Below are positions 2,410-52,827 of a stretch of DNA of 64,000 nucleotides, piece after piece. A model generated the notes under the pieces. It searched no databases and had not been told where the DNA came from. It saw only the letters and a list, made by a program, of their open reading frames with translations. Position numbers and translations under genes: made by a program. The stretch's first letter is position 1. Every line of letters begins with the position of its first letter. Origin of the DNA: Haematococcus lacustris (taxonomy: Eukaryota > Chlorophyta > Chlorophyceae > Chlamydomonadales > Haematococcaceae); assembly GCA_030144725.1 (NCBI GenBank), contig JASKMD010000030.1:6504155-6568154 (forward strand), written 5' to 3'.

Positions 2410-2888
2410 CTCTGTTAATGGCTTTTACACAACCTTGTCATGCATGTCCCGGTGCCGAGACGTGTGCGATAGGCGTAGCACCGTGCGGCATGCGATGACC
2501 GCTTAGTCTTCTATACGCCCGTAATGCCAGGAACCCCGTAAACGAAAAAGTGCGCCCACCAATCAGCCGGTCGCTCTCACCACATCGCGCAGCGCAAGTC
2601 AGCTATGGGAGTGCTTCGCAATACCGTGGTGGACTCCTAGCGCTCTAAGGGCAAGTACAGCCGGCGCTTGTGATTCCTCCCGGCTCAATTAACCCGACAG
2701 TGTTTCCTGGATGTAGACGCGCACCCAGTTCTACTTCTGTGAATGCTTACTCGTTGATGGGCCTTACGCTTACATATACCTTCCATTTCAAGGTCAGCAG
2801 CCTACACCAAGCTTGCTATGTTGCTGTTGATGAGTATGCCATATGAAGGAGAGTGACCTGCCCTTGCTACCACTCTCAATGTAGACAA
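2410..2888. other. No gene seen
   Basis: About 480 bases with no convincing exon, RNA gene or tandem repeat. It lies between element remnants and is probably decayed repeat or intergenic DNA. Confidence 0.5.
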
Positions 2889-3435: not shown

Positions 3436-3439
3436 TCCT

Positions 3440-5165: not shown

Positions 5166-5169
5166 ACAC

Positions 5170-28285: not shown

Positions 28286-28568
28286 ACAGAGGTCAGCAAA
28301 TGTCAGCCGGGAGACGTGTCAGCGTGAAGGCTGTTACAAGGCCTCACAGGGCTGGGGGCTGTTCATAGCTGAGCTGACCCTTTTAGTGAAACAAGTGAAA
28401 AGAATCATAGCATGGTACAACCACACATCCCAGTCCTTGTCATGGTTCTTAAGGCTTGTACAAACTATGCAGATCATTAGAGAGAGTACCCTAACACCAC
28501 CCACACACTTGTGCAGAGAGTGACCCATAAACAGAGGTCAGCAAATGTCAGCCAGGAGACGTGTCAGC
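28286..28568. repeat. Segment flanked by about 39-bp direct repeats
   Basis: AACAGAGGTCAGCAAATGTC plus AGCC(G/A)GGAGACGTGTCAGC occurs at 28286-28324 and 28530-28568 with one mismatch. Between them lies a minus-strand scrap of the family-1 element. Confidence 0.85.
28346..28395 (-). mobile_element. TnpB/Fanzor-like element, family 1, short internal fragment
   Basis: The minus strand reads TKRVSSAMNSPQPCEA, matching TSRVSSIMNSPQPCE of the copies at 39.4 and 49.5 kb, nearly identical over about 39 bases. It is cut off on both sides. Confidence 0.7.
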
Positions 28569-31149: not shown

Positions 31150-31325
31150 AGAATTGTAATGGGCAATGCAGAGAAACTTATGTGTGAACAAGGTTATGTT
31201 TATCGGCCGACCTTCGCAAGTGGGTTGGGGTAGGAAACCAGGTATTAGTACCGGCTGTAGGTCGCAGTTACTCGATTACAGATAACACAGCCCCTACACT
31301 CCAGTAGGGTAATTGTGTGCTGAGT
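31150..31325 (+). mobile_element. TnpB/Fanzor-like element, family 1, isolated 3' end
   Basis: Aligns with the 3' non-coding ends of the 39.4 and 49.5 kb copies: ttggggtaggaaaccaggta, ttagtaccggctgtaggtcg, cagttactcgattacagata, acacagcccctac and gtagggtaattgtgtgctga. No coding part is attached. It ends with the hairpin CCCTAC-ACTCCA-GTAGGG (31292-31309). Confidence 0.75.
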
Positions 31326-32195: not shown

Positions 32196-33266
32196 CTGCA
32201 GCAGCTGCTCACGTCCAAACAGCTGCAGCCGCAGCATGCTGCCCACACGCCTCCTCACACTGTCTAGCAGCAGCTCACGCAGCCAGGAGGGGCAGGTGTG
32301 GGAAGCAGTGCACCCCTTCCCCTCCCGCAAAACACCCAGCAGCAACAGTCACAAGCACAACAGGATGGGGTGAGCTATGTCTGTGTCTGCTTACATAAAT
32401 GTCTGCCATGCCTGCCAAGCAAAGTTGAGCAAGGCCCCCTCGCTGACGGTTGATAGGAGTTACAGGGAGCAAGGTTCGGGTGAAGCCTAAGAGCGAGCTA
32501 GGGGTGGTGCGCTGGAGGAATGTACGATGCATGGCTGTGTGAACATCAACATAGGACGCCTTGTGCCGTGTGCCTTGCATATGGTGCTGGGATGGCTGCC
32601 AGGCGTACTGTGGGGCACCCCACCAGACCCCTCCCTGTCTTGCCATGCCCATGGCTTCATGCTGACTGCAGCTCGGAGGGCATCCAGCACCCCTCAGCCG
32701 GGCAGGTGGCTGGACCGGGGCTGTAACTCAGCATCAAGCCTGCAGCGTGCCGGTAAAAGCGTGGAGCGGCCCCTGGAGCTGTTCCACTGGCCTGACCGGA
32801 CTCCATTGTGCCACTCAGGCATAGTACAAGGCGAGCAGCAAGCCACTGTATGACCAGCCGCGCTAGGTCCCTCAGCGTGGGCAGCGGGTATGGGAGGAGC
32901 AGAGGCCGGCTGCAGCAGAAGCACGGCAGCTGAGCCAGGCCATGCCCCGATTGTCATGGTGCGCTGAACAGCACAAACCACTTGTTTGTGTTTGACAGCT
33001 AGCCTCTGGGTGCCTGTGAACATGGCCTGTGGGTCAGGCAGCTGCCACGGGGTGTGGTAATGAGGTGCTGCCAAGAAAGGAGTCTCCAGCTCGGGTGCAT
33101 TCCCTGAAGACAGTTCGCAGGGCACAGCAGCAGGTCGTCCTCCTGTATGGCTTTGTGCCCAGGCTGGTAGGGCCCTCGTGGTCAAGGTAAGCCCCTTGAC
33201 ATGAAGAGTAAGAGCCACGAGAGGCCTTGTGAGACATGAACCCGCGTTGATGCCTTGCATACGCAT
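32196..33266 (-). CDS. Candidate exons of an unrecognised gene
   Basis: Block about 32318-32196 (minus) reads SHTCPSWLRELLLDSVRRRV, then GSMLRLQLFGREQLLQ before a CAG|GTCAGC donor. A second block, about 33180-32880, reads PAAVPCELSSGNAPELETPF, TPWQLPDPQAMFTGTQRLAV and KQVVCAVQRTMTIGAWPG. The two are separated by the family-1 fragment at 32690-32850 on the opposite strand, so that fragment may sit in an intron. I found no family match and no complete exon chain; the gap at 33501 may hide the start. Confidence 0.35.
32690..32850 (+). mobile_element. TnpB/Fanzor-like element, family 1, C-terminal fragment (dead)
   Basis: Reads PQPGRWLDRGCNSASSLQRA, then ERPLELFHWPDRTPL. It matches the tail of the 51.0 kb fragment (PQPGRWLDRDCNAALNMQRI). 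The catalytic Asp of DRD has become Gly and NAALN has become NSASS, so this piece cannot encode an active site. Confidence 0.75.
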
Positions 33267-33500: not shown

Positions 33501-34000
33501 NNNNNNNNNNNNNNNNNNNNNNNNNNNNNNNNNNNNNNNNNNNNNNNNNNNNNNNNNNNNNNNNNNNNNNNNNNNNNNNNNNNNNNNNNNNNNNNNNNNN
33601 NNNNNNNNNNNNNNNNNNNNNNNNNNNNNNNNNNNNNNNNNNNNNNNNNNNNNNNNNNNNNNNNNNNNNNNNNNNNNNNNNNNNNNNNNNNNNNNNNNNN
33701 NNNNNNNNNNNNNNNNNNNNNNNNNNNNNNNNNNNNNNNNNNNNNNNNNNNNNNNNNNNNNNNNNNNNNNNNNNNNNNNNNNNNNNNNNNNNNNNNNNNN
33801 NNNNNNNNNNNNNNNNNNNNNNNNNNNNNNNNNNNNNNNNNNNNNNNNNNNNNNNNNNNNNNNNNNNNNNNNNNNNNNNNNNNNNNNNNNNNNNNNNNNN
33901 NNNNNNNNNNNNNNNNNNNNNNNNNNNNNNNNNNNNNNNNNNNNNNNNNNNNNNNNNNNNNNNNNNNNNNNNNNNNNNNNNNNNNNNNNNNNNNNNNNNN
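33501..34000. other. Assembly gap (500 N)
   Basis: Exactly 500 N. It probably hides 5' exons of the proline-rich gene that follows, or the start of the minus-strand gene before it. Confidence 0.98.
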
Positions 34001-34338
34001 CATGGCACGTATCACTGTGCTACAGGCTGCTGAGTATGAATCTTGATTGCTCAGTCGGGGTAGGGCAATGCTGAAAGGCCTGGTCGCCAGCACAGCTACA
34101 CTGTGCGCCATTGGGCTTTCCCTGCCTGCTGGAGGTTGAGAGCTGAAATGTAGCCCCTGCCTAACCATCTGCCAAGGATCCCACACTGGCGTCTCAATTG
34201 CCACTCACCACGCTTGCTCCAGGCTAGCACAAGCTGGTAGGCTTATTACATACAGCAGCAGTACCGGCTCAAACGTATCTTACAATGTCAGGGTTTGCAC
34301 GCGGATAGCATCACTTCAGCATCAAAACACCAGCATGA

Positions 34339-37300
34339 TTGCACAAGTCATCAGTTTGCCCACTTGCATGCTGCAGGAAGCCTGCTGCCCCACATGCACC
34401 AGACGCCCAGCAGGTCTACAACAACAGGCCATCGCGCCCTGCATCCCAGACAGCCAGCTCCGTTGACCCACCCCAGGCACAGCCCCCATCAGCTCACAGA
34501 CAGCAGGTCCATGCAGCCTCGGGTTTGAAGAAGAAGACACCTCCCATGCCCGCATTCCTCCGAGCAGCTGTGACAAAGCCTTGCCTTGCCATTGAAGGTC
34601 CTCCTACAGCTGTGGATAGTGGCTTAGCCTGCTCAGCAGACATGGCTTGCTCTGCAGATGGTTCAGACGCCCTGCAGCTGGAGAGGCCAGGCACTGGTGA
34701 TGTTTGTGCCGCAGCAGACCAGCAGCAAACCACCTCCTCCATAGATGCAGGCACACAGCAACAGCCGCCTGCAGCTGCCCCAGCAGGAGAGCCACTGCAG
34801 CCTTACCCCACACTGCCACCACCAGAGGCATCTTGGAACAGTGAGTCAGACACATGGCACCTGGCCAGCTATGCTGCAGCGGGAGCACCCATTGAACCAA
34901 CACAGCCGCCCCTGCCCAGCAGCCTCAGCCTGGGCCATCCCAGCTCCACTGAGACCTGCTCAGCCAGCAATGAGGTTGCGCTGTCTGATGCCTCAGACTC
35001 AGTCCGTGGTCCCACCCTCTGCGGCCAGCCAGTGTCAGTGAACAGTTCAGCCTGCTCCGTTTCAGCTGCCGAGCTTGTTGAGCGCTCAGCAGATGAGCGG
35101 TACGAGGAGCAATGTCTAACGGCACAGGACAGCGTTTACTACACAGGCCTCATGCCAGGCTCGTCCACTGCCAGCTCTCAGGATGAAGTTGGCTCTGCGA
35201 TGCCAGCAGCAGTGCAGCCACAGCCTACCAGCTGGCCATCCAGCAACAGCTTGAATCAGTTTGAGCAGTCCCAGGTTCAGCCAATGGTGGCTCATGCAGT
35301 GCAGGGTGGGCTGGAGGGGTGTCCGCACTCCACACATGACTTCTATTCTCACAGTCAAGGTCGGGATAGCTGCACTGCCCAGCAACAGAATGGTAGCCCT
35401 GCACCTGAACAGCCTGCTAATGCTGAGCACGTGATGGAGCCTGCTGCTGCCACAAGCGACGTGGGAATGCTGGAGTCCATGCCGCCAGAACAGCATGGCC
35501 AGGAGGCAGATATTCCACCCGAGCAGGATTGCCAGAGTTTTGGTGCAGATGGGTCTGGGGCCGCATCCTGTGCCGCTCAGCCCTGGACAAACGTGCTGCT
35601 GCACCAGCCAGCCACAGCCAATTCAGCTCCTGATGCAGCATGTGAGCACTCCTTTGACTTCCACAGAAGCAACCCAGGCCAGGTCACTGGTGGAGCAGCC
35701 CCTGACAGCCCCGAACAGGCTCCTGCTCGACAAGTCCATCATCATCAAGGCATGCGCAGCTCAGTGGCAGAACGAGCAAAATGGTTCCAGCAACAGCAGC
35801 AGCAGCCCAGTCCAGCAAACCCTCCTCTACCTCGCGCACGTCCAGTCTGCGTGCCTGAGCCCCAAGCCTTGAGCAGGCCTGCTGCTGCAGTGGCTGGGCC
35901 CACTGTGGTCTGGGCCAGCCCAGGCCTCACTGCCCTGTCACCGGCTTTCATCCGCCCAGGTGCCCACCCCATGCAGCCCCGACCATCAGCTTTAGCCCTC
36001 CCTGATCATCCAGCCAGCAGCCAACCAGCGTGCAGCAGCCAGCAGCTGCAGCAGCAGGAGAGCCAGCTCCATGGCCAGTATGAAGCCATGGACTGCCAGG
36101 CGCAGCTGATGCCAGGGCAGCAGCTAGTGACCCGCTCCCCTCGGGGCCAGGCCATCTCCACTGGGGGCCTCATGGCCCAGGAGGGCCCCAATCCTATGCA
36201 ACAAGCTACGACGCAAGCTGGACAGCGCTGGCTGTCAAGCCCTGGTGATGTTCATGCCAACTCCGACTATGCAAGCTGTTGTGCACCTGGCCAGCAGAGC
36301 AGCAGGGAGCAGACGCCTGAACAGGATGACAGGCGTCCACAACGAGTGGCCATGCCAGGTGCCAGCCCAGCACTCAGCATCACTGACTCTGCCTCCTCCC
36401 ACCTGCCGCGTGCAGTGCCGACCCGGCAGGCAGGGGCAGGCTATGGAGGCGTTGCCGCCCACTCCATGCCACCACCCATGCATCCCCTCCTGCCCTCAGC
36501 TCGCCCAGCTGAGAGCGCATGGGATGCCAACCCTGCTGGCAGGCAATGGCCATCCCAGCCTCATGCAACGACCACCCAGTGCTGCGCTCCTGACGCCACA
36601 TGCCAACCCGCAGCACCCCCCATCCTGGATGGCAGCAGCCGGCGTTGCACGAGTACATCATCAGCTCCTACCACCAAGTTTGCCCCCTTTCTGCCATGTG
36701 ACAAATACACATACCCTGCAGCTGCTCTGGACCCTCCAGCAGCACGATCAGTAGCAGACCCTCCCGTGCCTGCTGAAGCACAGATGCCTGGCCAACCCAG
36801 GCGGTCAGTTTCACCGTATCAACGCCAGATGTCCATTCCCGGGATCAGCCCCGCAGCCCTGGCCAGCATGGAGGGTCAAGAGGCTGCGGGTATCAGGGTT
36901 TGCTATGATCCACCAGGGCATCCCCTACCAGTTGCTGCTGCTGCCCAGCACCCCTCCTTTCCGCAAGTAGCTGCTGGACACCGCCAGCATGCACCAGCAA
37001 CCTCGCAGCCAGCCGTTCAGCCAGCTGCTGCAGCTCTGCACGTCAGGCGCCCATCCATCCCTGGCATCAGCCCAGAAACCTTGGACGAGCTGGAGCTGGG
37101 TGGACAGCTGGCAGACAGATATGGAGCCAGCTCTCCCAGTGGCCCGGAAATGGTGATCACTGGGTTCCTAGGCGTGCCACACGCCAGCCTAGCTGACCAA
37201 CCTGCGGGCAGGCGGCCTGCTGGCTACGGCTGGACAGAGGCGGAGCACCCTCAGGGCCCGGCTGGACCCAGGGCAGTGCCCCTTCCCCACCCCAACCATG

Positions 37301-38883
37301 AGGTGCATGCAGTCAGCTGCAATACTGGCCTCCCATCGCCGCCGTCCACCACTCATCGCCTCTTGTCTATCCCTGGCGTCAGTCCAGCTGCTTTGGCTGC
37401 CATGGAGGGACCTAGTTTGCAGGCAGGGGGCCAGCCCATATCCCAGCCTGCCGCAGCGGGGCTTGTTGCTGCACGACGGCAACAGCTTTTACATCAGTCT
37501 GCACAGCAGCAGCAGCAGAGGGCACCCATCCCTCAGCCCCAGCATGCTCCCCCTGCTGCCCCAGCACAGCACTGGCAGGGCATGGCTGGACACAGCAAGC
37601 AGGGACCAGAAGCAGTTGAACGCACCCGCTCAGTCTCACCCATGGTCAGGCCACTCACGATACCAGGCGTCAGCCCAGCTGCCATGGCTGCTATGTCTGA
37701 GCCGGCTCCACAGTACGCAGCTCAACACAGATCGGGGTACTCTGAGCCAGTGGCGAGCAGGGGCCATGCACCTCCTGGTGCCATGCAACCTAACAGTGGG
37801 CCTGGGAGGCAGACACCACCCTGGGAGCAGCACCCAGTACACCAGCCACCACAGCCTCCACCCATACATCAGGGCCAGCAGCAGCTCCCTCCCTACCCCA
37901 CGCATCGTCCCTGCGGCATCGTGTCTGTAGCTGGTACGGCCAGTACATCAGCGTCCCAAGCCTTATCAGCAAGGCACTCCGAGCTTGCAGCCACTGATGA
38001 CATGGGGCAGCAGCGCTGCCAGCCCCACGTCAAACCTACTGGTCCAGATGTTTTGCGGCCGCCAGCGGTGCCACCGCAAGCTGCAACCACCAGGAAGGCT
38101 CCTCCTCCTCCTGGACCTCCTCCACCACCCCCAGGGCCTCCCCCTCCTCCCCCTCTTCCACCTCAATTGTCTGGCAGCGCACTGCTCAAACGCTCTCTCG
38201 CAAAGGGTTGCCGCGATAGTGATGACAGCAGCGTCAGCTTGGCATCGTCTCAGTGAGTCAGTGCACCCTCCTTGGCCAAAGCTTGTCTAACAGTTGACGA
38301 TGATACACAGCTGCAGCTGTCTGCTTGCTGTGCTCGCTGCTCTTACTCAGTAGCCATCATTACTGTTGTTCTTTTTGATGCTGTGTGGTTTGCTTTGCCT
38401 GCCTGGCTGCTATGCACTGCTGCTGTACCTTTCGACCTCTGGGCAATGTCCCCAGAAGCCAATGTATGATGCGTGTATCACATGTGGGTAGTATGCTCAT
38501 ACTGCAGGGGCATGGCTGACGTCCTCGCAGCCATCAAGCAGCTGAACCTGCGCGGTGGGCCCATGGCAGCATTGCGAAGCCCTAGCATGAAGGCCACGCC
38601 AAGCCCTAGCCGTGCGGGAGTCGCTGCACAGCAGTCCCAACCTCTCCGCCGGAACTCCGCTGCCGCGGTACCCGCCCCGGGGATGCCGGGGACTCCCGGG
38701 AGTACCGCATCCTTTCAAGACGCGGTGAGCCGTGGGCCCACCCCTTCCCCGCCGCCCGCCGTTTTCTCACTCGCCTCCGCGGCTGCTGCCAGAGCGCGCG
38801 GACAGCTACAGGCCCAGCAGATGTTGCAGCGGGTCAGGAACATGCACACGCAGGATGACTCGGATGGCGAGTGGGGCGCGTAG
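34339..38883 (+). CDS. Large proline-rich protein with four SIPG(I/V)SP motifs
   Basis: A 3.9 kb open exon ends at 38252 (…SVSLASSQ) with GTGAGT and joins in phase to 38508-38883 (MADVLAAIKQLNLRGGPMAA… to DDSDGEWGA and stop). The 5' end is uncertain: the frame is open from 34339, but an acceptor at gctgcag|GAAGCC (34377) and the nearby gap suggest missing upstream exons. Composition is Q/P/A/S-rich and disordered. Four repeats share (S/T)IPG(I/V)SPxx(L/M), near 36835, 37050, 37370 and 37660. A PPPPGPPPPPPGPPPPPP run precedes ALLKRSLAKG. Polyproline followed by LLxxxxxKG and DVLAAIKQLNLR resembles, weakly, the proline-rich/WH2 layout of actin regulators; I would not name it on that. TGTAA at 39039-39043 fits as its poly(A) signal. 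Confidence 0.7.
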
Positions 38884-39430
38884 AGCAGAGATATTTGACC
38901 TTGCCGGTGCTTGGCTGGTACAGGTGCTGCTTTGAGCCTGGCACGTGGATAACAGGATGCTTGTCATAGCTAGGCTTGGTGCGGCTGGTTTGCAGCCGAT
39001 GCTCATGAATAGTTCTACAAGTATCAACACAACTGCATTGTAAAACGTGTTGCCTCTTCTGCCACCATGGCATCATTGCAACAATAACAAAGCATGCAAG
39101 AGGTATTGCGTGACCCGCTCAATATCACTCAATTTGCCAGGTTGGTAATGGGCATACCAGGTATACCAGGTTAATGGTAGTGAAAGTGTAAGGCATTATT
39201 TCAAGTACGCCACACGCTAGTCGTTGCCGCTCACCACACCCTGTGCACTAACAAGCAGATGGCAGTGATTGGCGCTGGGAATCGAACAAGCTAGCTATGT
39301 AAACTGTATAGCTTGTGACTGATGTGGAGCGCGCCCCTGCTGTCAAGCAACCTCTTTGCAGCCTTTAGTCCCTCAATCTGTGGCTCTGCTGTGTAGCCCA
39401 GCCAATGTAACTGTTGCCATGTAAGTCGCG
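38884..39430. other. 3' UTR and intergenic sequence
   Basis: Contains the TGTAA at 39039. No gene seen before the element copy that begins near 39440. Confidence 0.5.
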
Positions 39431-39439
39431 AGAGTGAGA

Positions 39440-40735
39440 GTCGCAGCTTCAGGGGTGTGGCGTGCGGATGGCTGCTTGCAAGGCCTCTACAGGAGCAAGC
39501 TGACCAGGAGCCAGGTGCAGCATGACAGCGGCCTGATCCAGGCTCGACACAACACTCAGCGGTGGAATGACAACATCAAGCTCGAGCTGCAGCACCTGGC
39601 AGCAGCCACCCCAGCAGGCACCTCCCTGGTGGTCATCCAGCGGCATGTGGCCGTCACCCTGGCCACCTGGGATGCAGTGTGAGGGGAGTACCTGCATCCC
39701 AAGTGGGCTGAGCAGAAGATGAGGCTGCATGGTGCGCAGGAGAAGGTCCTGGAGCGCTACTTCAAGAAGGTGGGAGTGCCAAGGGTAGGGGGGGAGGGGC
39801 AGGACCAGAGGCTGATGACTGCCCCACATGTGACCTGCTAGGTGCCATGTCCCCAGTCCTGCCAAGGATGTCATGCGCGGTGTGTGCCTTGTGTGCCATG
39901 CAGTTGGAGGAGGAGGCAACCAGCGTGTCCCAGCAGCAGTGGGGGACCCGCAAGCAGCTGGTGGTGTTCTTTGGCAACGCAGGCATTGGCACCCGGGGTG
40001 GGTGGGGGGCCAAGGCCGTGCTGCAGGCCTGCCGCAAAGTGGTGGAGAGGCCCAACAGCGGCAAGCCAACAGACAGGGTGCTAGGCAAGGTGGTGACAGT
40101 GGATGAGTTCTGCACCAGCAGGGTCAGCTCAATCATGAACAGCCCCCAGCCCTGTGAGGCGGAGTTGGACAGCAGCAAGCCCACCAGGCTTGCAGGCTGG
40201 AAGCCCCAGCCAGGTCAGGTGCAGAACCGCTTGTTGCAGTCAGCCTGGAGCAAGCGGTTTGTGGCGGCAGTGTGGGGGCTCATGTGGTGCCCTTGGCTGG
40301 TCCAGGCCACCCCTGGGGACCTTGGCAAATGGGTGGACAGGGACTGCAACGCAGCCCTCAACCTCCAGCGGGCAGGGGAGGCCAAGTGGCGCCCACTGGA
40401 GCTGTGCAGGTGGCCACACCGAGCAAGGCTTCCAGCCAAGGGCAAGGAGTACCCCGCACTGGGCTATAAGAAGCTACGAGACCGAGCCCCAAGGCCCTAG
40501 CCCAGCAGCCTGTAGCACAGTAGCATGTGTGCACCGCGCAATGCTGAAGCTGTTGCTTACATCCGAGCATGTGTTTCATGCCAACATCGATCGCCTGACC
40601 TTTGCAAGTAGGTTGGGGTAGGAAATCAGGTATTGGTACCGGCTGTTGGTCGCAGTTACTCAGTTCGGATTACAGACAACACAGCCCCTACCCGTTACCC
40701 GTTAGTAGGGGAATAATGTGCTGTCAAGCAAAGAC
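39440..40735 (+). mobile_element. TnpB/Fanzor-like element, family 1, copy A (5'-truncated)
   Basis: Starts just after the RuvC-I position (VAASGVWRADGCLQGLYRSK). Coding blocks are 39440-39769 and 39904-40500, separated by an intron (GTGGGAG…ATGCAG) shared with copy B and joined in phase FKK|LEEE. Landmarks are QRHVAVTLATWDAV, HPKWAEQKMRLHGAQ, KQLVVFFGNAGIGTRGGWGA, VVTVDEFCTSRVSSIMNSPQ, GLMWCPW, WVDRDCNAALNLQRAG and LPAKGKEYPALGYKKLRDRA. The order (FFG…G…VDE-TS…DRDxNAALN) matches Fanzor/TnpB RuvC domains, with Glu of VDE placed as in the rearranged Fanzor site. A Trp codon has become TGA at 39680-39682 and RuvC-I is missing, so it is dead. The 3' non-coding end runs to about 40735. Confidence 0.75.
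40500..40720 (+). ncRNA. Candidate guide-RNA (omega-RNA-like) 3' region of the family-1 element
   Basis: About 220 bases after the stop of copy A are conserved in copy B (50690-50885), and the last 170 in the solo end at 31150-31325. They finish in a hairpin: CCCCTAC (40685-40691), loop, GTAGGGG (40705-40711). In TnpB and Fanzor systems the guide RNA comes from the element's 3' end next to or overlapping the ORF. Conservation and the hairpin are seen in the sequence; transcription and guide function are inference. Confidence 0.4.
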
Positions 40736-40924
40736 ACATTCGATGCAGTAGTTTGGCATCGTAACCTGGCCAGGTGGCCTGGCATCCATCCAACCTAACC
40801 CTCCTGCTCATCCATGATACCTCGAGATGGTGTCACGTGGTAGTGCACTGCTGCAGCTGTCAGAAGCCACAACAATACTTAGGCTGCGTGTACTCAGCTG
40901 TGATAGCAAGGCAGCGGTTTGCAT

Positions 40925-40929
40925 TTACA
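40925..40929 (-). promoter_or_regulatory. Poly(A) signal TGTAA of RRP36
   Basis: TTACA on the plus strand, 64 bp after the RRP36 stop. TGTAA is the usual signal in chlorophyte nuclear genes. Confidence 0.55.
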
Positions 40930-40992
40930 CTTGTGTTCGTAGCAGGCTCATACAGTGCCAGCGCTCCGACCTGACTTCCTGCTGAGCTGGGC

Positions 40993-42795
40993 TTAGGCGT
41001 CGTTGCGACCGTCCGGCAGGTGGCGGTGATCCTTGCTTGCATTGTGCTTGCGCCGCTTCTCCATGAAGCGGTCCAGCTTTCCAGAGGATTGCAAGGCCTC
41101 GAACCTGCGCGAGCAGAACCAGTGCCGGTTGTACCACGCACATGGCACATGAGGTTGCCCTGTCACAGAGTAAGAACCCAATTGACGAGACCCGGCAGTT
41201 TCTCTGTTGTGACCATGTTCATCACATGCATTGGTGTCAGCAGCAGCAGTGGCGACAGTGGCTGGCAGGAAAGGGCCCATGGCAGGGGGCTGCTGATATC
41301 ACAGCTGTTGGCTCCGCTGGCAAACGCCACAGTGCCATGCATTTCACTGCCCAAGGGTGCGGCCTATGAAGTGCTCCAGGCATCAGTGCGCCTCCTAGCT
41401 GTCGGATGGTGTGCTGGAGGACATGGGAGGCTGGTTCACGGCAGGCACCGGCTAATGCTGGCCAAGGAAACAGAAGGCAGCGGCAGCGCCCTCCCAGACC
41501 CACTTTGCCACCAACTCCAGTTTGCGCTTGTCGCTCTTCTTGAGGAAGAAGGGTGCTTTGCCGGCCGCAGCAGCCTCCTTTTGCTTTGCCTGCAGCTCAG
41601 CCAAGCAGGGGCTGCTGCCATGTGAACGCGCCAGCCTCTCATCCCATCATGTGGGAGTGCAGGCATCGCATGTCTGCACCTCTATAGCACTTCATGTTCA
41701 ATACTGCACCCATGGGACGTGTACAGATATAGGGTTGGGGTGAGGGTGAGGGTGAGGGTGAGAGTGACCCACCCAGTGATACTTCAAACACCCGCAATTG
41801 CAATGGTACAACTGTGTGGACTCAAGGTACAGGGTGCCTTTGTCCGCATGCACAGGGTGTGTGTTGCCCCAGGATCGCCACTGCTCCCTGGGCCACCTTG
41901 CCTGGCCAAGGCAAGCTGCAGGTGTGGTGCAGACGCCAGGCCCCCTGCCCCTACCTTGACTGTGTGGTCTAGCTCTGATCTCTGCCGCCGGGTCCGCTCC
42001 TGCTGCAGGCGGGAATCCAGCCGTTGAAGTTGCAGTGACAGCGCTGCCTTTGTCTGTGGGTTGCGCTCAGCCTGCATGGTAGGCAAGGTTATACTTCATC
42101 ATCATTATAAATGCCAGGTCATCATCGTCATCATCTGTGTAGGCTATGAAGCTCTTCATTATCACCAGAATATGGCATGGCAACCCCCATGTCTTGTAAG
42201 CAACCATTGCCAGTAGGGCTGCAACAAGTGGCAGCAAACAACAAACCCATCATCAATAACTGCCAGCACCCACCTTCATGGCAGTACGCAGCACGGCCCG
42301 CTCACTGGGCATTACACTGTCGTATAGGAAGGCATAGCGCCGAGCCGCTGCCTCCTTCTCCCCTGGGCGGCTGGGTTCAAACCTCGGATCCTTCCCTTCC
42401 CTGCAACCACAGCATGTTTACATGCACCATCCTGCCGCCCATGCACCGCCATGTGTTGCCATGCACTGCCATGCATTACAAGGGAGCCTCACAGCAAGGT
42501 TCACTGCCGCTGCGGAAGTGCTCCATGAGGCATGCAGGCTTGGGTCACACACACGCCTTGACGCTGTGAACGCAGCACTCCTCACCATGAAGGTCATCTA
42601 CACATAGTTCCAATCACACTTTCCCTTGCGTCACTCACTTGCGAACAGGTGCAACGACCTCGCGAGCTCGGGACACTGGACGCTTGCTGGACATCTCCTG
42701 CAGGCGGCAGCACAAGCGCCAGGCCGAGCTTGATCACACTGCAACCCTCGTCAGCATCGATGACGGCAGCAACCCTCGTCAGCGTTGGTGGCAGC

Positions 42796-42828
<33 letters not shown>

Positions 42829-44229
42829 GTTCTCTTTTCGCATGCCTTATGATGTGTCGTCAGCGCCGTACAGCATCTGATGAACAGGGTTTGCTGCAGT
42901 GCTAGTGACAGATGCATCAAGAAGCAGGTATAAAGTGCTGTGCCAGCAGCTCAAAAGCATGGAGCAGGTGGTCTGGTGAAGCATCTCTGCACCCCCACCT
43001 ATCTCAAGCCTGGTCACACTATTGTCAACATTCAGGGTGAGGGAGGGGCCTCCTGTTGATACAGATGCTGGTCAGCGCACCCAACCACCTCACTGGTCAC
43101 ACTTTGGGCCTGTGCTTGTTAGCACGCTTGAAGCTGGCTTCCTGCTGCTTGGCGGCCTTGGCAGCTGCCTTGGCCTGCTCCTGTGCAGGACCAACGCCGT
43201 CACTGCGTGCCAGCAGCCGCTCCTCAAAGGGCAGCTCTTCTACCTACTCACAACCAACCAGTGGCACAGCATGGCGGTGGCTGGGCTTGGTCAACAGCTG
43301 CTGCTCCTGCAGTGGAACTTGGCTGCTGCTGGCTCGATTGGTAAACAGTCACAGCCCCAACCAATCTGCTAGCTATGCTGCCACTGTCGCAGGCAGTGCT
43401 GGATCACAAGCATGATGACGAGTTGCTGTAAGCAGCAGCCACACTCTAGCACCTGGCGATATGGACTGCTTATCACAGATTTGGCTTGCAGTGCCGAACT
43501 TCTGTGCTGTTACATGTGCTGCTGGCAGTCTGCTGTGCTGCAGTCATGCCCTGCCACTGAGCAATGAGCATGATGTGATGGTGTGTGCCTAGAAGCAACA
43601 GAAGGCCGTGACAATTGCGTGGTGCATAGCACGTACCTGCTGCTGCAGGGACAGCTCTGCATCTGCTTCAGAGTCAGCCTCACTGTCATCCTCGTCCTCG
43701 CCTGCGTCAGCCTCCTCCTCATCATCTCCAGCAGTAGGAGCTGCTGCTGACTTCACACGAACAGGCTGTGCCCCCGGAATGCTGCTTGGTACTGCCCTTC
43801 GCTGCCTGGCTGCAACCTGCTGGCCCAAGCCGCCCTCATGATCGCTGTCTATGCTGTTTTCGTGGGTTTGAGGTTCTTGCACAGCTGTTCCTTTTGCTGG
43901 GCGCCTGCTGGCTTCTGCCTTGCTTGGCGGCTGAGTATGCTCTGACGTGTCATTGCTGCTGTCCGACAGGTTGCCATCTTCGTCTAAAGGCCCACACTCC
44001 ATGCGCTGCAAGGCTTTCCTAGACAATCACGCCAACATACCGTGTTAGCAGACTGGCAGTGAGCCAGCAACAGTCATGGGCTTCACCTGTAATGGGCGTC
44101 CTCTATTGTCTCCGAACGCTTTCTTTCGGACTGTATTGCTCCTTTCGCCGCAACGCGTGCGCGGGTCGGAACTGATGCATGCCCGGGATGGCGCGCCTTA
44201 GTGGCGCCCCTCTGCTTCCCAAGCTTCAT
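40993..44229 (-). CDS. RRP36: rRNA-processing protein RRP36 homologue
   Basis: Nucleolar factor for early 18S pre-rRNA cleavages in the 90S pre-ribosome. Eight minus exons close in phase to 388 residues: 44229-44087, 44018-43637, 43243-43103, 42697-42639, 42400-42274, 42071-41955, 41589-41504 and 41104-40993. The acidic N-terminal half (DDEEEADAGEDEDDSEADSE) is longer than in animal or yeast forms (about 260-300 in total). The conserved core follows: LPFEERLLARSDG, SFKRANKHRPK|EMSSKRPV, SRAREVVAPVRKEGKDPRFE, YAFLYDSVMPSERAVLRTAM, KAPFFLKKSDKRKLELVAK and the C-terminal GKLDRFMEKRRKHNASKDHR plus HLP. These match the family blocks FKRANKNRP, SSKRPV, DPRF and KRRKKNA-KDHR. It is divergent from the AAA ATPase gene 314 bp away. 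Confidence 0.95.
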
Positions 44230-44543
44230 TCTAGAGGCGTCAAAGGTGCACGAGTTGTGCACAGCAAGGTGAACAAGTTATGAGCACCACCATGTGTAAA
44301 AACATTGGCTGTGCATGCGGGGTTCCACATTCACGGTGAGCGTGCCCTGTCACCCCCATGTGTGGTAAACATGCGAGTAAACTGAAGCACACCCACCACC
44401 AGCACAAGGCAGGCTCAAACCTGAGGCTAGCTCTGGTGGTGTACCAAGGTGACATTCGAACGGCGCCCAGCCCGTGCGATGCAGCCGGGTTAGTACTGAG
44501 ACACGCTCCCCATCCAATGTAATCCAAGGCGACGAGATATACT
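44230..44543. promoter_or_regulatory. Shared divergent promoter region (RRP36 and AAA ATPase)
   Basis: 314 bp between opposed start codons. Nothing else is encoded here; no clear TATA box. Confidence 0.5.
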
Positions 44544-47500
44544 ATGTCGGCAGCTGTCTTGGGACTTGCTGACCGCTTACAAGACGTCCTCGATGCCGCG
44601 GTACACGCGCTTGAAGCTGAGCAGGATAACAATACGGACACGGCGCTACGCAGTTACGCCCAGGTGGGCGCTGGTTAGCCTGGCGCGCGGTGCCGCACTT
44701 GCGCTCCTCTAGCAACCGCTTCAGGGGCGGATGCGCGCGTACTTGAACAGCATCCGCGGATCTCCGTGCAGGTGAAGGCTCGTCTCTGCTGGGTGAAGGA
44801 CGAGGTGGCACTTCTGGACCCTGTGGAGCTGTTCTTGCTTGCCTCACAACAGAGCCCATGCGAGAGCCTTGCGGCTCCATTGCATTTTGGGATGCCTCAC
44901 CTGCTAATGTCTCCACCGTCTCGAACATCAGAGCTGCTCGAAACACTGCAGCAGTCTGAGGTCATGGCATTGCTCATGGAGGTGTGCAGTAGCTTGCAGG
45001 CGACGTGCGATGCTCGCATCCAGGCAAGTGGCATGCCTACAAAGCAAATGCAGCCATCTCTTGTTGTCTGGGTGTACGAGTGTGTGCTCTGCCACTGCAC
45101 TGTGCACAGGACCTCCAGCAAACCGACCCCCCAGCCTCACCACCCGCCAGTCACAGAGCCAGAGTTAAGGAAGAGCAGGCAGCTGTGAAGCAGCACCAGC
45201 TGCAGCTGCCACCTTGCCCCCATCCCCTTGCTCGGCCACCCACAGGCTCATACCCCTTGAGAGAACCCCTTGTCATCAATGACACACCCAACAGCACAGC
45301 CACCCTGCTCAACGTTTTTCAAAGCACTGGCGTCACAACTTCTGCTGGGCATCCTTCTCCAGCATGGGCTACCCCTCACATGGCTGCTCTCCACTGCCCC
45401 AGCCCCCATCCGGAAGCTAGCACAGCGCAGGAGCATCACTTTGATGTGCAAGCCATGCAGTGCAGCCCTGCTTATGCAGCACAGCCCGCAGGCCATCCTG
45501 AGCACTTGAGGTGTAGCCGAGAAGGCAGCCTCGACCCTGACGCCGCCCTGCTGCAACCTCATCAGCAAGGGCAGCAGGGGCATCCCCAGCAGGAGCATAG
45601 CTGCCTGCTTGTAGCTGGTGCCAAGGCAGCAGGCATGTGTGAGCAGGAGCTGTCATCAGCAGACCCCGTGTTGAAGGAGCTCATACAGCAATGCCGGCGA
45701 GATGTCTGGGGTAGCCTAGATGACTTGGCAGGTTTAAGGTGAGGTAGGCTGTGTGCACCACTGCTGCTTCTTCATGTAAGGAAGACCAAGCAAGGGTGTG
45801 TTATGTGCTGAGCTCATGTCTGTGTGCACCTCTACAGTGAAGTCAAGAAGGAGCTGAAGCAGGCAGTATTCTTGCCCCTACGCTACCCTCACTTGTAAGT
45901 TGTAATCGCCAATGGTCTACCTTCTTCTGATGCTCATGCTCATGCCAATACTGTCAATGCACTCATTGCTGCTGATGGTGGTATTAATGATGGTGGTGGT
46001 GATGGTTTGTGTCATGCACACTTGCTGCTGGAGTTGCTGAGCCTGCTTCACTGTCAGCCATTGGGCCGTTGAGCGTGTGGCACATGGTAAAGGAAGATTA
46101 TTCTTCCCTGTTGCAGGTTCCAGGGGCTCAGAGCTCCTCCTAGCAACTTCTTGTTCTATGGACCCCCTGGTACGGGCAAGACCATGCTCGTTGAGAAGGT
46201 GCGACCTCAGTGGGCATGAGGCGGATAAAAGCAGATCCATGTCCAGCCCAGCCCCTGCATAGAGCAGTCATAGAGCAGTGTTGCCAGCGTAGAGCTGCGT
46301 AGAGTGCGTAGAGCTGTCATAGAGCAGTGTTGCCAGCAGCAGCAGCACTGATAAACACACAGCCAGCAAGCATCGAGCGTTAACATTGCTACAGCAATTG
46401 ACTAGTAGGATAGCTGGATGATGTTTTGACATTGCGACGATGAGAAACAGCATCTGTTTCACAATTCTTTTGAGCCTCACAATCTCCCTCGTCAGCCCAG
46501 CGGGCAACAAGCACCAACGCAATTGGTAGAATTAGGTCTCCTTGTTAGGGGTGGTGTTATGTCTGTGTGGAGTTATGTCCCCACACGCATGGCATGGGCG
46601 CCTTTCACCTACACTATTGCCTGACCCCTGTGGCAGGGCTGTAGCCTAGGATTGGCATGACTGACATGCCTGATGGTAGCTGATGACAGCTCAGAGGGGT
46701 ACACACTACTGTGACACAGGCAGCTGCTGCTGGGCCCTGGGTGGGCTTGGTAGCCTTGGCCTTACCCTTGCCTGTGCCCCTTTGCGTCAGGTCAAGTAGT
46801 TCGGGCAGTTATAGCTTTGGCAGTGCCACACCATGCCTGGATGAGTGTCAGCCCCTTGGTCATGTGAGGCATGGAGGCTGGTGGTTTGCTGCATGTTAAT
46901 CGATAAGTGTGTGGGCAACCCTCTGCTGCTGGCTTTGCATCCAGGTGGCCGCCCAAGCTGGGCTTACACTGCTATGTCTGCCACCAAGCGTGCTGCTCAG
47001 CAAGTGGAGTGGGGAGAGTGAGAAGACCTTGCGTGCTGCTTTCAAGGCAGCCAAGCTGCTGCAGCCTTGCGCCATCTTCCTTGTAAGAGTACTTGCAGCT
47101 TTAGCTGCCTTGCTAAGTGATATGACGCCCCCTGACGTGCCTGCCATGTCTGATGCTTGCCTCATGCCAGTTCACTCGACCTACGCACGGGTTTTTGCTC
47201 TTGGCAGGCCTTGCTGCGGTGCTGTATCGAGCTGTATGCCCACTCCACATTCCGCACAGGATGAAGTAGATAGCTTGGCGCCGCAGCGTGGAGCCTCTGG
47301 TTCGTCCGGCGAAGACGCAGCCAGTCGACGTCTCTTGACCGAGCTGCTAATCCAAATGAGCGCCCTGGCAAGCAGCGCGCAGCGGCGCACTGCCACGGGC
47401 GCCTCTCCTCGACAGAGCCCCGCCACAAGCGACGCGACGAAGCGTACCAGCCAGAGCGCACGCGAGGGGCATGGAGGGTGCAGCGTCCCGGCTAGCCGCA

Positions 47501-49068
47501 GTGCCGGGTCGGCGAGATCTCTGCCTGCGCGCCGAACAGGCGCAATGCTGCCGTTGGATGCGGCAACCCTCACCCGGCCGAGCGTGTACATATTCGCAGC
47601 TACCAACCGGCTGCAGGTGACTGGGCCTGTGACTCATGTGACTGGGCCTGTGGCTCGAAAGATGGACTGGGTCACTGATGGTCGAGAGCCCTGGGAATCA
47701 GGCCCGTGGGTGATTCTCCCTGCACTGAGCCGAGAGGCTTGCACAGCTGCATGTGGGGTCCCACCGGACTGACTGCCTGGCCCCGCCTGCACGCGAACCC
47801 ACGCTATGCATTGCACGGCACTGTGCTGCACCGAACAGCTTAGACTCTGCTGAGACGTGCTGCGCATACTCAGGATTGTGACACCGCCCTGCTGCGTCGC
47901 TTCGAGCGCCGAGTGCATGTACCTCTGCCTGACATCCCTGCTCGCGAAGCTTATTTCCAGGTGAGCTGCAACTGCATAAGCACTGCTGGACTTGAGGTGT
48001 ATGAAGGCATGTCGAGTTTGATATATTTCCTGAGAGGCCACACTGCACATTTATTCCACACTGTATCTACTGGCATACAGTCCGCTTTTGTTATTGCTAC
48101 AGTATTACTAACATTCTTGAGAAGTAAACTCTGCTGCAGCTGCATGCCACAGCGTGCATGACCCTAGGGTCATGCATTTGCCCAGCTGCAGCATAGCTCC
48201 CACCCGTTCTTTGGAGCCCTGATCTTCTTCCTCGCTTTACCTTTTTGCTGGTGGTCCTAAACACTACCTGAATCCATACTCATACGATTGAAAAGATGGA
48301 ATAACGAAACACAGAGGCACTGGCATCTGTTATGCACAAGTTATGTCAAGCCCTTGTCTATACAATGGTAGAAGGACAATGATTGATAGCAATGATGCCT
48401 CTGCTTCCAGGTTACATACAGTCACAGCCCAGCCTTGCGGCACACATGAAAGTGAGGCCTTGCTCAGGCGTTGTAAGTCGCTATCAGTCACGTGCTGCCT
48501 GGCTGGTGCTGCCATGGCCTGTGCAGAAGGTGTTGAGCAAGCCTGAGCTGGCCCATGACATAGACCTGGCGAGCTCTGGGCCAGGGTCCAGCATGGCCCA
48601 GCTGCTGGCGGCCTCACAGGGTGAGTTCTTCAGAGCGCGATGTCTCTGTGCCTGCTATTATGAACGCCATGTGTCATGATGATGTAGCACTAGACTTCCT
48701 CAGCCCCAGCCCTTGCTGCCCAGGTCTGATGGGGCTGTGCTTGGGTCAGGGCCAGGGCTTGCTGCTCTATCTGTACAGGCTACAGCTGCAGCGACCTGGA
48801 TGTCATTGCCCGTGAAGCTGCCATGGCTCCGGTGCGGGAGGCCATAGATGGCATGGAGGAGGGAGATGACCAGCACGGCGCCTTGCAACCAGCAACATCG
48901 CAAGCAGCAGGTGCAGCCGTGGCGGCAGCCTTAGGAGAGGGATTGCCTGCCAACTCAAGCGAGGCGATGCACTCGTGCTTGAGGCTGCTATGCCTCCAAG
49001 ACTTTCTCGATGCATTCGCGAAGATCAAGCCAGCCGCACTGGACCAGGCCTTGGCTGGGCAACCTTAG
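44544..49068 (+). CDS. MIT-like/AAA ATPase (katanin/spastin/VPS4-like clade)
   Basis: Exons 44544-44663, 44772-45023, 45110-45738, 45838-45894, 46117-46198, 46945-47082, 47260-47616, 47874-47960, 48527-48620 and 48779-49068 close to 701 residues. The N-terminus (MSAAVLGLADRLQDVLDAAV… ALRSYAQ) is MIT-like helical, which in this clade recruits ESCRT-III or microtubules. The AAA core has GLSEVKKELKQAVFLPLRYP, Walker A GPPGTGKT (exon 5), LLSKWSGESEKTLRAAF, Walker B AIFL|DEVDSL, sensor 1 YIFAATNR, arginine-finger region ALLRRFERR and GYSCSDLDVIAREAAMAPVR. Oddities: intron 2 has a GC donor (CAG|GCAAGT), and about 75 low-complexity residues are inserted between Walker B and sensor 1. A 30-nt microexon at 48422-48451 would also keep frame but is not needed. 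Exact subfamily is unclear. Confidence 0.88.
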
Positions 49069-49163
49069 TAAGGTGTCAAATGGGAAGTGAATTTTGTGGA
49101 TCGGCCAGCTTCTGCTTGAAGCTTGATGGGTAGCACAATTGGCATGGTCAGCATCAGTAAGTT

Positions 49164-49168
49164 TGTAA
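49164..49168 (+). promoter_or_regulatory. Poly(A) signal TGTAA of the AAA ATPase gene
   Basis: TGTAA 96 bp after the stop codon, in the sense direction. Confidence 0.5.
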
Positions 49169-49439
49169 TCAGAGCTCAGTGGTGGGTTAGCGCAGTGGGG
49201 GGTTTAGTGGGGGTCAGCAGTTTCCGCAGTTGCATGTGTTTGCATGGGGCATGGCTTCTTTGCATGTATGAGCGTGTTCCTTAGCGTAGTTTTGATTGTT
49301 GTAGAACAATAACTGCCATATCTTGGTTCCGTCACGCAAGCTAGCTAATGATTTTATGCTGCTTGTGGAGACTTTTCAGTATAATTCTTGTATTGAGCGT
49401 TTATAGTGTCCGCTGTCACACCAACCCCGTCAACAGCCG

Positions 49440-50890
49440 TTGCTTTTTATCACACGCCCTTAGCTGCTGGCTAGGTCCCGGCCTGGCTGACGAGCGGGCG
49501 TTCCTGTTTGACCCAGCCACTCAGATGGGCATGGGACTGGACCCTGGTGCCATCCAGGCAGTCAGCGCAGCTTCCGGGGTGTGGCGTGCGGATGGCTCTT
49601 GCAAGGCTTCTACAGGAGCAAGCTGACCAGGAGCCATGTGCAGCATGACAGCGGCCTAATCCAGGCTCGACACAACACTCAGCGGTGGAATGACAACATC
49701 AAGCTCGAGGTGCAGCACCTGGCAGCAGCCACCCCAGCAGGCACCTCCATGGTGGCCATCCAGCGGCATGTGGCCGTCACCCTGGCCACTTGGGATGCAG
49801 TGTGGGGGGAGTACCTGCATCCCAAGTGGGCTGAGCAGAAGATAAGGCTGTATGGCGCGCAGGCAAAGGTCCTGGAGCGCTACTTCAAGAAGGTGGGAGT
49901 GCCAAGGGTAGGGGGGGGAGGGGCAGGACCAGAGGCTGATGGCTGCCCCACATGTGACCTGCTAGGTGCCATGTCCCCAGTTCTGCCAAGGATGTCATGC
50001 GCGATGTGTGCCTTGTGTGCCATGCAGTTGGAGGAGGAGGCAGCCAGCGTTTCCCAGCAGCAGTGGGGGGCCCGCAAGCAGCTGGTGGTGTTCTTCGGCA
50101 ACGCAGGCACCTAGTGGTCCCCGAGCTCGGTGGGGGGCCAAGGCTGTGCTTCAGGCCTGCCGCAAGGTGGTGGAGAGGGCCAACAGCGGCAAGCCAACCG
50201 ACAGGGTGCCAGGCAAGTTGGTGACAGTGGATGAGTTCTGCACCAGCAGGGTCAGCTCAATCATGAACAGCCCCCAGCCCTGTGAGGAGGAGCTGAACCG
50301 CAGCAAGCCCAGCAGGTGTGAGGCGGAGGTGGACTGCAGCAAGCCCACCAGGCCTGAGGACTGGAAGCCCCAGCCAGGTCAGGTGCAGCACCGCTTGTTG
50401 CGGTCAGCCTGGAGCAAGCGGTTTGAGGCGCAAGTGCGGGGGCTCATGTGGTGCCCTTGGCTGGCCCAGGCCACCCCTGGGGACCTTGGCAAATGAGTGG
50501 ACAGGGACTGCAACGCAGCCCTCAACCTCCAGCGGGCAGGGGGAGGCCAAGTGGCGCCCACTGGAGCTGTGCAGGTGGCCACACCGAGCAAGGCTTCCAG
50601 CCAAGGGCAAGGAGTACCCAGCATTGGGCTTCAAGAAGCTGCGAGATCGAGCTCCCAAGGCCCTAGCCCAGCAGCCTGTAGCACAGTAGCATGTGTGCAC
50701 CACGCAATGCTGAAGCTGTTGCTTACATCACAACATGTGTTTCATGCCAACATCGATCGCCTGACTCTCGCAAGGGGGGAGGGGTAGGAAATTAGGTATT
50801 GGTATCGGATGCTTGTTGCATACAATCAGCTCGGATCACAGATGACACAGCCCCTACCCGTTGCCCGTTAGTAAGGGAATAATGTGCTGA
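49440..50890 (+). mobile_element. TnpB/Fanzor-like element, family 1, copy B (RuvC-I present, several lesions)
   Basis: Closely similar to copy A but begins further upstream, with DERAFLFDPATQMGMGLDPG and AIQAVSAASGVWRADG. D of GLDPG (codon 49540-49542) is in the position of the RuvC-I catalytic Asp. The rest follows as in copy A: KLTRSHVQHDSGLIQARHNT, KWAEQKIRLYGAQ, the same intron (about 49892-50027), KQLVVFFGNAG, VTVDEFCTSRVSS, GLMWCPW, VDRDCNAALNLQRAG. Lesions: a one-base loss near 49594, replaced sequence with a stop near 50110, Trp to TGA at 50494-50496, and an extra G near 50540. Relative to copy A it has an internal duplication (CEEELNRSKPSR / CEAEVDCSKPTR). It is not functional. The N-terminal part before DERAF is missing or too decayed to see. 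Confidence 0.78.
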
Positions 50891-51036
50891 GCCCAACAAG
50901 CATAATGAAACAAGAATAATGTGCGGAACCCACCCACCGGGGTCACCCCTGACTGGTCACATGATTCAGCCTTTGCGTCAGCACTAGCTGACCGCCCGTC
51001 ATACAGCCAGTTGCTTGGCCCACATAATGCATGTGA

Positions 51037-51249
51037 ATGGGGCTTTGCCTGCCCGTGGCTGCCAGCAGCTCTTCGACCGACTCGACGCACCTGACACACG
51101 CACCACAGCCCGGCAGGTGGCTGGACAGGGACTGCAATGCAGCGCTGAACATGCAGCGCATTGGTGAGAGGTGGCGCTCGCTGGAGCTGTGCTGGTGGCC
51201 GGACCTGCCAGCTCTGCCAGCCAAGGGCAAGCGTCAGGCAATGGTCTAG
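51037..51249 (+). mobile_element. TnpB/Fanzor-like element, family 1, C-terminal fragment D
   Basis: Open frame ending PQPGRWLDRDCNAALNMQRI, GERWRSLELCWWPDLPALPA and KGKRQAMV. It keeps the RuvC-III DRDCNAALN signature and the LPAKGK tail seen in copies A and B, but nothing upstream. Lies about 150 bp after copy B and 380 bp before PETC, in the same orientation. Confidence 0.75.
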
Positions 51250-51628
51250 GTGGTAGGCGCCCTCGCCATGTGCATGTACCATGTGCATGGGGACATAACT
51301 CGACATCCTGAGTGGTCTCTAGTGGCACCTAGTGGTCCCTAGAGGTCCGACTCACATGGCGAGGGACGCGAGAGGCTGCCAGCAGAATGGTAATACAATG
51401 ATTGTGGCGCTCGAAGGCAAATCAATGGCTGACTAAGTTAAGGCTCTTTCGAGCTTTTATGGCTGTCGACGGGTTGCCACGGCAGTTCAGGTAGTGAACT
51501 CTGCATTTCCTATTCGGCAGTAACAAAACCTCATGTTCACCACACAAACACACTTTAAAATCAAAGTGGGAGCCGTGCACCTGCCTACACCGACGTAGCA
51601 GCGTTTCATTACCTCAAACTCTGACCAA

Positions 51629-52827
51629 ATGGCTGTTTCCGTGTCATCTCGCACCGCTGCTGTCCGCCCAGCTGTGAGCGCTCCTCGCCGAGTGCGCAGC
51701 ACCGTGGTGCGCGCAGCCACTGTCGCTGGCGATGTGCCTGACATGGAGAAGCGCAATGTTATGAACCTGATTCTGGCAAGCGGCGTGGGCTTGCCCGTTG
51801 CTGGCATGGCAGTGCCCTTCCTGTCGTTCTTTGTGCCCGTGAGGTAACCCAGCAGCATCCTCGTGGCCAGCCACGCGTCGTGGGACCTCTGGCTCAGCCT
51901 GGCCCGTTAGAAAGTATAGCAAAGGTAGTAAAGGAACGCACCTCTCCTACGTGCAGCGCTGGAGGTGGTGCTGGTGGCCAGGCAGCTAAGGACGCACTGG
52001 GCAACGACGTCAAAGCCGCTGAATGGTTGAAGACGCACCCAGTTGGCGACCACAGCCTCGCCCAGGGTCTGAAGGTGCTGCAATCTTATCCTGTTCGTTG
52101 ATGCCTTTCTATAGCTGGCTTACGATCGGCCTCGCGCGTTGTTTACAGGGCGACCCCACCTACCTCATCGTCAACAACGACGGCAAGATTGAGAACTTCG
52201 GCGTGAACGCAGTGTGCACCCACTTGGGCTGCGTGGTGCCCTGGAACGCGGTGGGTGATGTACACTGGTACTCTGGCCCTTGCATGTGCCATCATCACCA
52301 TTTACCCTGTGCACTGCACCTCATGGGTGTCACTCCGGTGTACACTGCAACATTGCAGGCTGAGAAGAAGTTCAAGTGCCCCTGCCACGGCTCCCAGTAC
52401 AACGGGGAGGGCAAGGTTGTGCGTGGCCCTGCACCCCTGGTGGGTTACACAGCCCAGAGTCTTGCCTGCCTGCTCCCTGGCAGTTGCTTGTGGGACACCA
52501 AGTATGGCTCATACTGTTCATGTGCCTGCAGTCTCTGGCGCTGGCGCATGCTGACATCAACGACGCCGATGTTGTCATCTTCTCCACCTGGTGAGCTGCA
52601 ATCATTTGTTTACATGGGGTGCTGGTCGATGCTACCGTAACTTCGGCCACAGTAGACCTAGCACAGCTGCTTGACACACGTCTGCACAGCTGTGCTGGGT
52701 TCATTTTTGCTTGGCCATCAATGTGATGTGCAGTGTGTTTTTGCTGTGTGCGACATCACTGCGTGGGGCCTAATTTTGCAGGAAGGAGACTGACTTCCGC
52801 ACTGGCGAGGCTCCCTGGTGGAAGTAG
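51629..52827 (+). CDS. PETC: Cytochrome b6f complex Rieske iron-sulfur protein, plastid precursor
   Basis: Carries electrons from plastoquinol to cytochrome f in thylakoids. Six exons close in phase to 206 residues, as in Chlamydomonas: 51629-51843, 51957-52074, 52149-52250, 52359-52439, 52532-52590 and 52782-52827. The transit peptide ([20 protein letters not shown]) is followed by the membrane anchor ([20 protein letters not shown]), a glycine-rich hinge (SAGGGAGG), [17 protein letters not shown] and [11 protein letters not shown]. The two 2Fe-2S motifs are CTHLGC (exon 3) and CPCHGS (exon 4), with the disulphide cysteines included. The end, [13 protein letters not shown], is the family C-terminus. 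A partial copy of its last exon and 3' UTR lies at about 55250-55345. Confidence 0.98.

Follow-up and report, generated by a model that had tools for sequence, protein, structure and literature searches.

The window examined here is a 64,000-nucleotide stretch of the Haematococcus lacustris genome (assembly GCA_030144725.1, contig JASKMD010000030.1, positions 6,504,155 to 6,568,154, forward strand). It holds two related sequences, copies A and B, which are dead and fragmentary members of a mobile element family abundant in this green alga (Table 1). An earlier note, made from the letters of the window, had proposed that A and B encode the same Fanzor/TnpB-like protein with four RuvC motifs. 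The two copies match in six blocks over approximately 1.3 kb at 89-96% identity, and the order KQLVVFFGNAG, VDEFCTSR, DRDCNAALN is indeed kept in both. On the other hand, GLDPG occurs in copy B only, and neither copy encodes the protein, owing to the deletion and stop in copy A and the frameshifts and stops in copy B.

Copy A is an insertion bounded by a 13-nt target duplication (TGCTGTCAAGCAA) and has an internal deletion, with loss of the N-terminal exons and of GLDPG. In alignment with L034, a full-length copy described below, the sequence rejoins at window position 39442, equivalent to L034 position 2193 and just downstream of GLDPG, so that copy A is left without the N-terminal half of the protein and its first catalytic Asp; an in-frame stop is found at 39680-39682. 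The similarity of copy B to L034 begins at position 2106 and is broken by frameshifts and stops, among them one after GNAGT and one before VDRD. A target duplication was sought for copy B and none was found. The stretch around it (window 48500-52000) is a segmental duplication, present at approximately 91-93% identity in two places on contig C166 (L003/L031 and L007), from which it follows that copy B is probably older than the duplication event. The segmental duplication also rules out a reading in which B, L003 and L007, which share a 3' flank, were inserted separately. The fragments that had been placed near 51037, 32690, 31150 and 28346 were all recovered, together with one last-exon scrap beyond that list.

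Abundance of the family and an open copy

The genome scanned comprises 308 Mb in 597 contigs. With the frame of copy A as the query, 935 database proteins were retrieved at E <= 1e-3, and a second protein search gave 689 matches; all of the 120 matches listed from each search are from H. lacustris, and those listed from both constitute the 191 H. lacustris proteins referred to below. A 411-bp probe pointed to 2284 first-look candidates in the genome, 40 of which were scored and proved to be at least 93% identical. With these 935 proteins and 2284 candidates the family lies far beyond chance. A scan of viral contigs with the H. lacustris family found no relative.

The earlier note had called for a genome search for full-length copies with all three catalytic acids, and L034 is such a copy: it has four exons, is open where checked and retains the three acids. 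Its length is 3458 bp (approximately 3.46 kb) from the left duplication to the end of the terminal GCTG, or 3471 bp with the 13-nt left duplication included. The first exon begins with MKGKKRKG, a basic segment that we take to resemble a nuclear localisation signal; it is followed by a second exon with a provisional 3' edge, a long third exon in which TDGVSV and GLDPG lie, and the last one, which contains VDEFRTS and DRDCNAA. All three strict motifs are found in order in 38 of the 191 proteins. A coding minisatellite of PSGSSPAA-type units, variable in copy number, lies directly before RuvC-I (L034, oriented 3786-7243; P0017, P0033 and P0044).

Relationship to Fanzor1

On copy A the Pfam zinc-ribbon model PF07282 reached 12.2 bits, its cut-off being 26.3; in a Pfam scan of 14 H. 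lacustris proteins or frames of the window it was just over the cut-off only in P0126 and P0170, both of which have a repeated domain with extra partial copies. Searches of PDB sequences with copy A and with P0176 returned no Fanzor, and an NCBIfam scan gave nothing above its cut-off. Because PF07282 and the comparison of the family profile with the PDB left a gap, L051, a Fanzor1 from a public viral contig, was chosen as a bridge between the family and known Fanzor1 proteins. L051 matches PpFz1 (4.5e-35), SpuFz1 (2.8e-34) and GtFz1 (4.4e-23) in the PDB and has 1183 homologues, with PF26935 precomputed on all 120 among the matches listed; the same Pfam family is also found on three of the 191 H. 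lacustris proteins (P0127, P0137 and P0186).

A Fanzor1 hidden Markov model (HMM) was built from 13 sequences, namely L051, nine close metagenome relatives and stretches of the SpuFz1, PpFz1 and GtFz1 chains. With E-values calculated for 191 sequences, it matched 18, 28 and 59 of the H. lacustris proteins at E <= 1e-4, 1e-3 and 1e-2, respectively, and at each threshold none of 1146 shuffled or reversed decoys, these counts being drawn from close relatives rather than independent tests and from a model whose 13 training sequences include ten that resemble one another closely. Looser thresholds of 0.1 and 1 admitted 110 and 169 proteins versus one and three decoys, and the best match reached 3.2e-8.

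Profile-profile comparison (hhalign) aligned the two groups from RuvC-II to RuvC-III with an E-value of 5.8e-4. When 31 H. lacustris proteins were aligned together with 14 Fanzor1 sequences of the L051 type, D356, P357, G358, R671, D672 and N674 are invariant, as are a Gly, two Cys and a Trp, and V539, D540, E541, R543 and T544 are nearly so; the DPG, shifted Glu and RD motifs are collinear with those of Fanzor1. In a direct BLASTP comparison of P0186 with one Fanzor1 of the L051 type, the TDGVS segment aligned at no more than 26.6 bits.

Catalytic motifs, zinc ribbon and selection

Among the aligned proteins, RuvC-I retains D in 76/84, P in 80/84 and G in 77/84, and the Asp of the RuvC-III RD, conserved above the median site, is present in 175/179. 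The Glu of RuvC-II (VDE-x-R-TS) is found in 165/181 proteins and aligns with VDEFRTS of Fanzor1, in agreement with the shifted Glu before TS that had been read from the window. The VDEFCTSR of A and B is a minority state, R being kept in 164 of 180 proteins and C in ten. DPG and a repositioned Glu are described as a fingerprint of Fanzors in the part of PMC10711439 that was consulted, and the prokaryotic-type TnpB pattern (D-hydrophobic-G, with a Glu approximately 50 residues upstream of the zinc finger) does not apply, since the family has DPG and a Glu adjoining TS.

The first CxxC, already reported as missing from A and B, is absent across the family: 172 of 177 aligned proteins have Ser at the first-Cys position, Glu+7. 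Of the four zinc cysteines, two have a conserved counterpart in the family (173/182 and 157/165), and the C4 zinc ribbon, as judged from the alignments, fails family-wide with two of its four cysteines left. Of the earlier Fanzor/TnpB-like assignment the relation to Fanzor1 stands at the sequence level. As DPG and the repositioned Glu are present and the C4 zinc finger of the Bao and Jurka motif is not, we file the family as a divergent Fanzor1-related lineage and not as a canonical member.

Selection on the protein is weakly supported. Across 35 distinct copies, shared changes fall on codon positions 1, 2 and 3 in the ratio 17:15:19 and single changes in the ratio 54:57:65; many copies look like young pseudogenes.

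Element ends and target sites

An end pattern was located in 29 of 31 loci. The 3' end consists of a hairpin (CCCCTAC or CCCCTGC with GTAGGGG, and a variable loop), a short spacer and, usually, TGCTG. Beyond it the sequence differs between loci, except for flanks shared by L002/L010, L006/L019, L011/L012, L014/L023 and B/L003/L007, so that some loci do not represent separate insertions. At nine of 37 ends, some of which are not true ends, the flank shares a repeat of 12 nt or more with upstream sequence, versus eight of 1332 mismatched pairs. When flanks only were compared, a repeat of at least 9 nt was present at eight of 31 ends and its left copy was preceded exactly by GCTG in six of the eight; of the other two, one is displaced by one base and one is likely to be due to chance. 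The target duplications are 11-17 nt long and start at GCTG, and in several copies extra sequence, from 19 nt to apparently hundreds of nucleotides, lies between the left duplication and the element. Truncation at the 5' end is seen among the copies, the intron before the last exon is present in all 31 readings (22 places and nine re-cuts), and no poly-A or microsatellite tail was seen at the ends.

The consensus fold of the 3' tail has 97.2% of its cells paired, with 18 double-change cells versus 5.6 in shuffles (0/500), a statistic inflated by the relatedness of the copies. A predicted outer helix, in which the terminal GCTG would pair with a CAGC close to the stop codon, shows no compensating change. 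A second subfamily (window 51233-51380; L043, L033 and L044) has a different 3' tail, and by eye some of its copies also appear to finish in GCTG.

Nature of the protein and mode of copying

The explanation that we hold to be probable is that A and B are dead copies of a high-copy H. lacustris element whose open members, of approximately 3.5 kb, encode a divergent Fanzor1-related RuvC protein, with guide use by the protein and Helitron2-like copying of the element in trans both presumed. The protein may bind RNA of the 3' tail and, by homology with Fanzor1, which does so, take the flanking sequence as its guide for cutting or nicking DNA; if so, it would act with two cysteines left in its zinc ribbon. 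The element would not be self-moving but would be copied in trans, most likely by one-ended rolling-circle replication of the Helitron2 type that begins from the 3' hairpin, the route suggested for CRe-1, CRe-2 and CRe-3 of Chlamydomonas reinhardtii. The genome gave 18 matches to Helitron_like_N proteins, seven of them strong and none with a stop inside the match; in one Helitron stretch the sole likeness to the element is a 118-bp, 68% match to element positions 223-340.

Several results weigh against this explanation. A PDB search with a 14-sequence family profile (A1) returned no Fanzor and two chance-level matches, a genome search with PF07282 gave no match at E <= 0.001, and the hhalign probability was only 29% despite its E-value. 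Two AlphaFold models, with predicted local distance difference test (pLDDT) scores of 41.8 and 36.8, were too poor for the RuvC fold to be assessed, and a Foldseek search with the first of them found no match at E <= 0.001. The catalytic D and E are conserved no better than the median site. The signal of selection is weak: the ratio of nonsynonymous to synonymous polymorphism (pN/pS) reaches 0.52 for the coding frame, compared with 0.61 and 1.03 when the frame is shifted along the same strand and with 1.03, 0.86 and 0.64 for the opposite strand, and the corresponding substitution ratio (dN/dS) for one cross-subfamily pair is 0.51 in frame versus 0.81 and 0.95 when shifted. Finally, no 3' end shared with a Helitron was found in two 9-kb stretches, covering two of the 18 matches, beyond which such an end may lie.

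The same Fanzor1-related protein could instead belong to an element copied through RNA in the manner of long interspersed nuclear elements (LINEs), its UGCUG 3' end annealing to the nicked target strand (CAGCA) and priming cDNA synthesis. Such a model accounts for duplications that carry GCTG, for truncated 5' ends and for a variable filler on the 5' side, and all three are observed, with GCTG starting the left duplication in six of the eight flank-only cases and truncation accompanied by the 11-17-nt duplications. A spliced transcript, on the other hand, would lose the intron that every reading retains, which disfavours copying from spliced mRNA, and the lack of a poly-A or microsatellite tail also counts against LINE-type copying; we regard it as rather unlikely. 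It also seems doubtful that the protein has ceased to be a nuclease and travels with the element as a relic of Fanzor1 that is repurposed or in catalytic decay. The reduced zinc ribbon, the unexceptional conservation of D and E and the death of both window copies would fit a relic; the open frame of L034 with its three acids, the 38 proteins with ordered strict motifs and the lower in-frame dN/dS of the cross-subfamily pair speak against one.

That the family is unrelated to Fanzor, a repeat protein of other origin in which DPG, E and RD arose by chance, is very improbable. It would be consistent with the lack of a PDB match, the sub-threshold PF07282 score of copy A and the two unusable folds, but the absence of decoys among the HMM matches at E <= 0.01 argues strongly against it, as do PF26935 on three family members and the invariant, collinear motifs accompanied by TDGVS and RP segments. 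A more elaborate version of the Fanzor1-related explanation, in which a zinc-ribbon-degenerate lineage uses the GCTG of its 3' end and its targets as a target-adjacent motif and the structured tail as a guide scaffold, and RNA-guided cutting at GCTG helps to choose or rescue insertion sites, we consider improbable.

Comparison with known systems

Fanzor repeats in green algae are already known from the consulted parts of PMC3627910 and PMC12636532. The former describes CRe-1, CRe-2 and CRe-3 as Fanzor1 elements that are non-autonomous Helitron2 (Bao and Jurka 2013, PMC3627910). By that description, the H. lacustris element resembles them in having a multi-exon Fanzor1-type gene of a green alga within the element, in its 5' truncation and internal deletions with an intact, hairpin-bearing 3' end, and in its duplications of variable length (approximately 7-19 nt in CRe) with extra sequence inside the 5' duplication. 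It differs in that CRe duplications follow TTTT-like tetranucleotides whereas those of H. lacustris start with GCTG, and in that CRe ends match known Helitrons whereas no matching end was found in the two 9-kb stretches.

The family shares with SpuFz1 (8gkh), PpFz1 (9cf0) and GtFz1 (9cer) a TDG-type segment, the Asp-Pro of RuvC-I, a Gly before RuvC-II, the repositioned Glu before TS, the RuvC-III motif and the order of these motifs. In contrast to them, it carries a low-complexity insert of PSGSSPAA repeats ahead of RuvC-I, to which the second subfamily adds a Lys/Pro-rich one ahead of RuvC-III, and it is too divergent for a profile match in the PDB. The CCCC zinc finger of SpuFz1, as given in the consulted part of PMC10432273, also contrasts with the two cysteines of the H. 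lacustris family.

The most abundant repeat of another green alga, Auxenochlorella, likewise encodes a Fanzor protein according to the part of PMC12636532 consulted, a likeness by description only; this is the paper in which the words Fanzor and Haematococcus both occur, and there the Fanzor is that of Auxenochlorella. In a literature search that left most subscription journals outside its reach, no report of this family or of Fanzor in Haematococcus was found among the papers listed, and the available portion of the 2023 H. lacustris genome paper attributes 50.8% of the genome to transposable elements and does not name the family (PMC10400597).

These observations suggest that the loss of half the zinc ribbon need not keep a Fanzor1-related nuclease lineage from reaching a very high copy number in one alga, its spread being accompanied by clear insertion footprints. 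Surveys that search by zinc-finger pattern, for example with the regular expressions quoted in PMC10711439, should overlook the family because the CxxC pairs that they require are absent. With an open copy, a GCTG target and a conserved tail, questions of guide RNA and mobility become directly testable in the alga.

Other features of the window

Table 1. Features of the family in the window (window positions; L034 positions are numbered from its left duplication)
Feature	Position	Strand	Remarks
Left target-site duplication, copy A	39338-39350	+	13 nt, begins TGCTG
Copy A overall (insertion)	39351-40723	+	Bounded by the 13-nt duplication
Copy A extra 5' sequence, between duplication and recognisable element	39351-39402	+	
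Copy A element 5' end	39403-39442	+	L034 positions 32-71
Copy A internal-to-3' part	39442-40723	+	L034 positions 2193-3471
Copy A retained GT-AG intron	39770-39903	+	
Copy A last exon	39904-40500	+	KQLVVFFGNAG, VDEFCTSR, DRDCNAALN
Copy A conserved 3' non-coding tail	40502-40723	+	Terminal hairpin CCCCTAC/GTAGGGG, TGCTG at end
Right target-site duplication, copy A	40719-40731	+	TGCTG common to duplication and element end
Copy B, 5'-truncated and frameshifted	about 49479-50889	+	GLDPG, VDEFCTSR, DRDCNAALN; within segmental duplication
Second-subfamily scrap, last exon	51100-51231	+	88.9% to P0176 662-706
3' non-coding sequence behind second-subfamily scrap	51233-51380	+	Strong hairpin, z -3.25
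Scrap, second-subfamily-like last exon	32671-32820	+	56% to P0176 656-705
A/B-subfamily 3'-end scrap	31202-31322	+	Hairpin and TGCTG at end
RuvC-II-region scrap, 48 nt	28341-28388	-	
Last-exon scrap, beyond the earlier list	about 34087-34176	-	

An Rfam scan of the 64-kb window gave no match. Runs of exactly 500 N at 7666-8165 and 33501-34000 are probably assembly gaps. An open frame of 1305 codons at 34339-38256 (+), rich in Pro, Gln and Ser, could be an exon of a host gene, and the reading frames at 52023-52640 resemble a Rieske iron-sulphur protein in their motifs.

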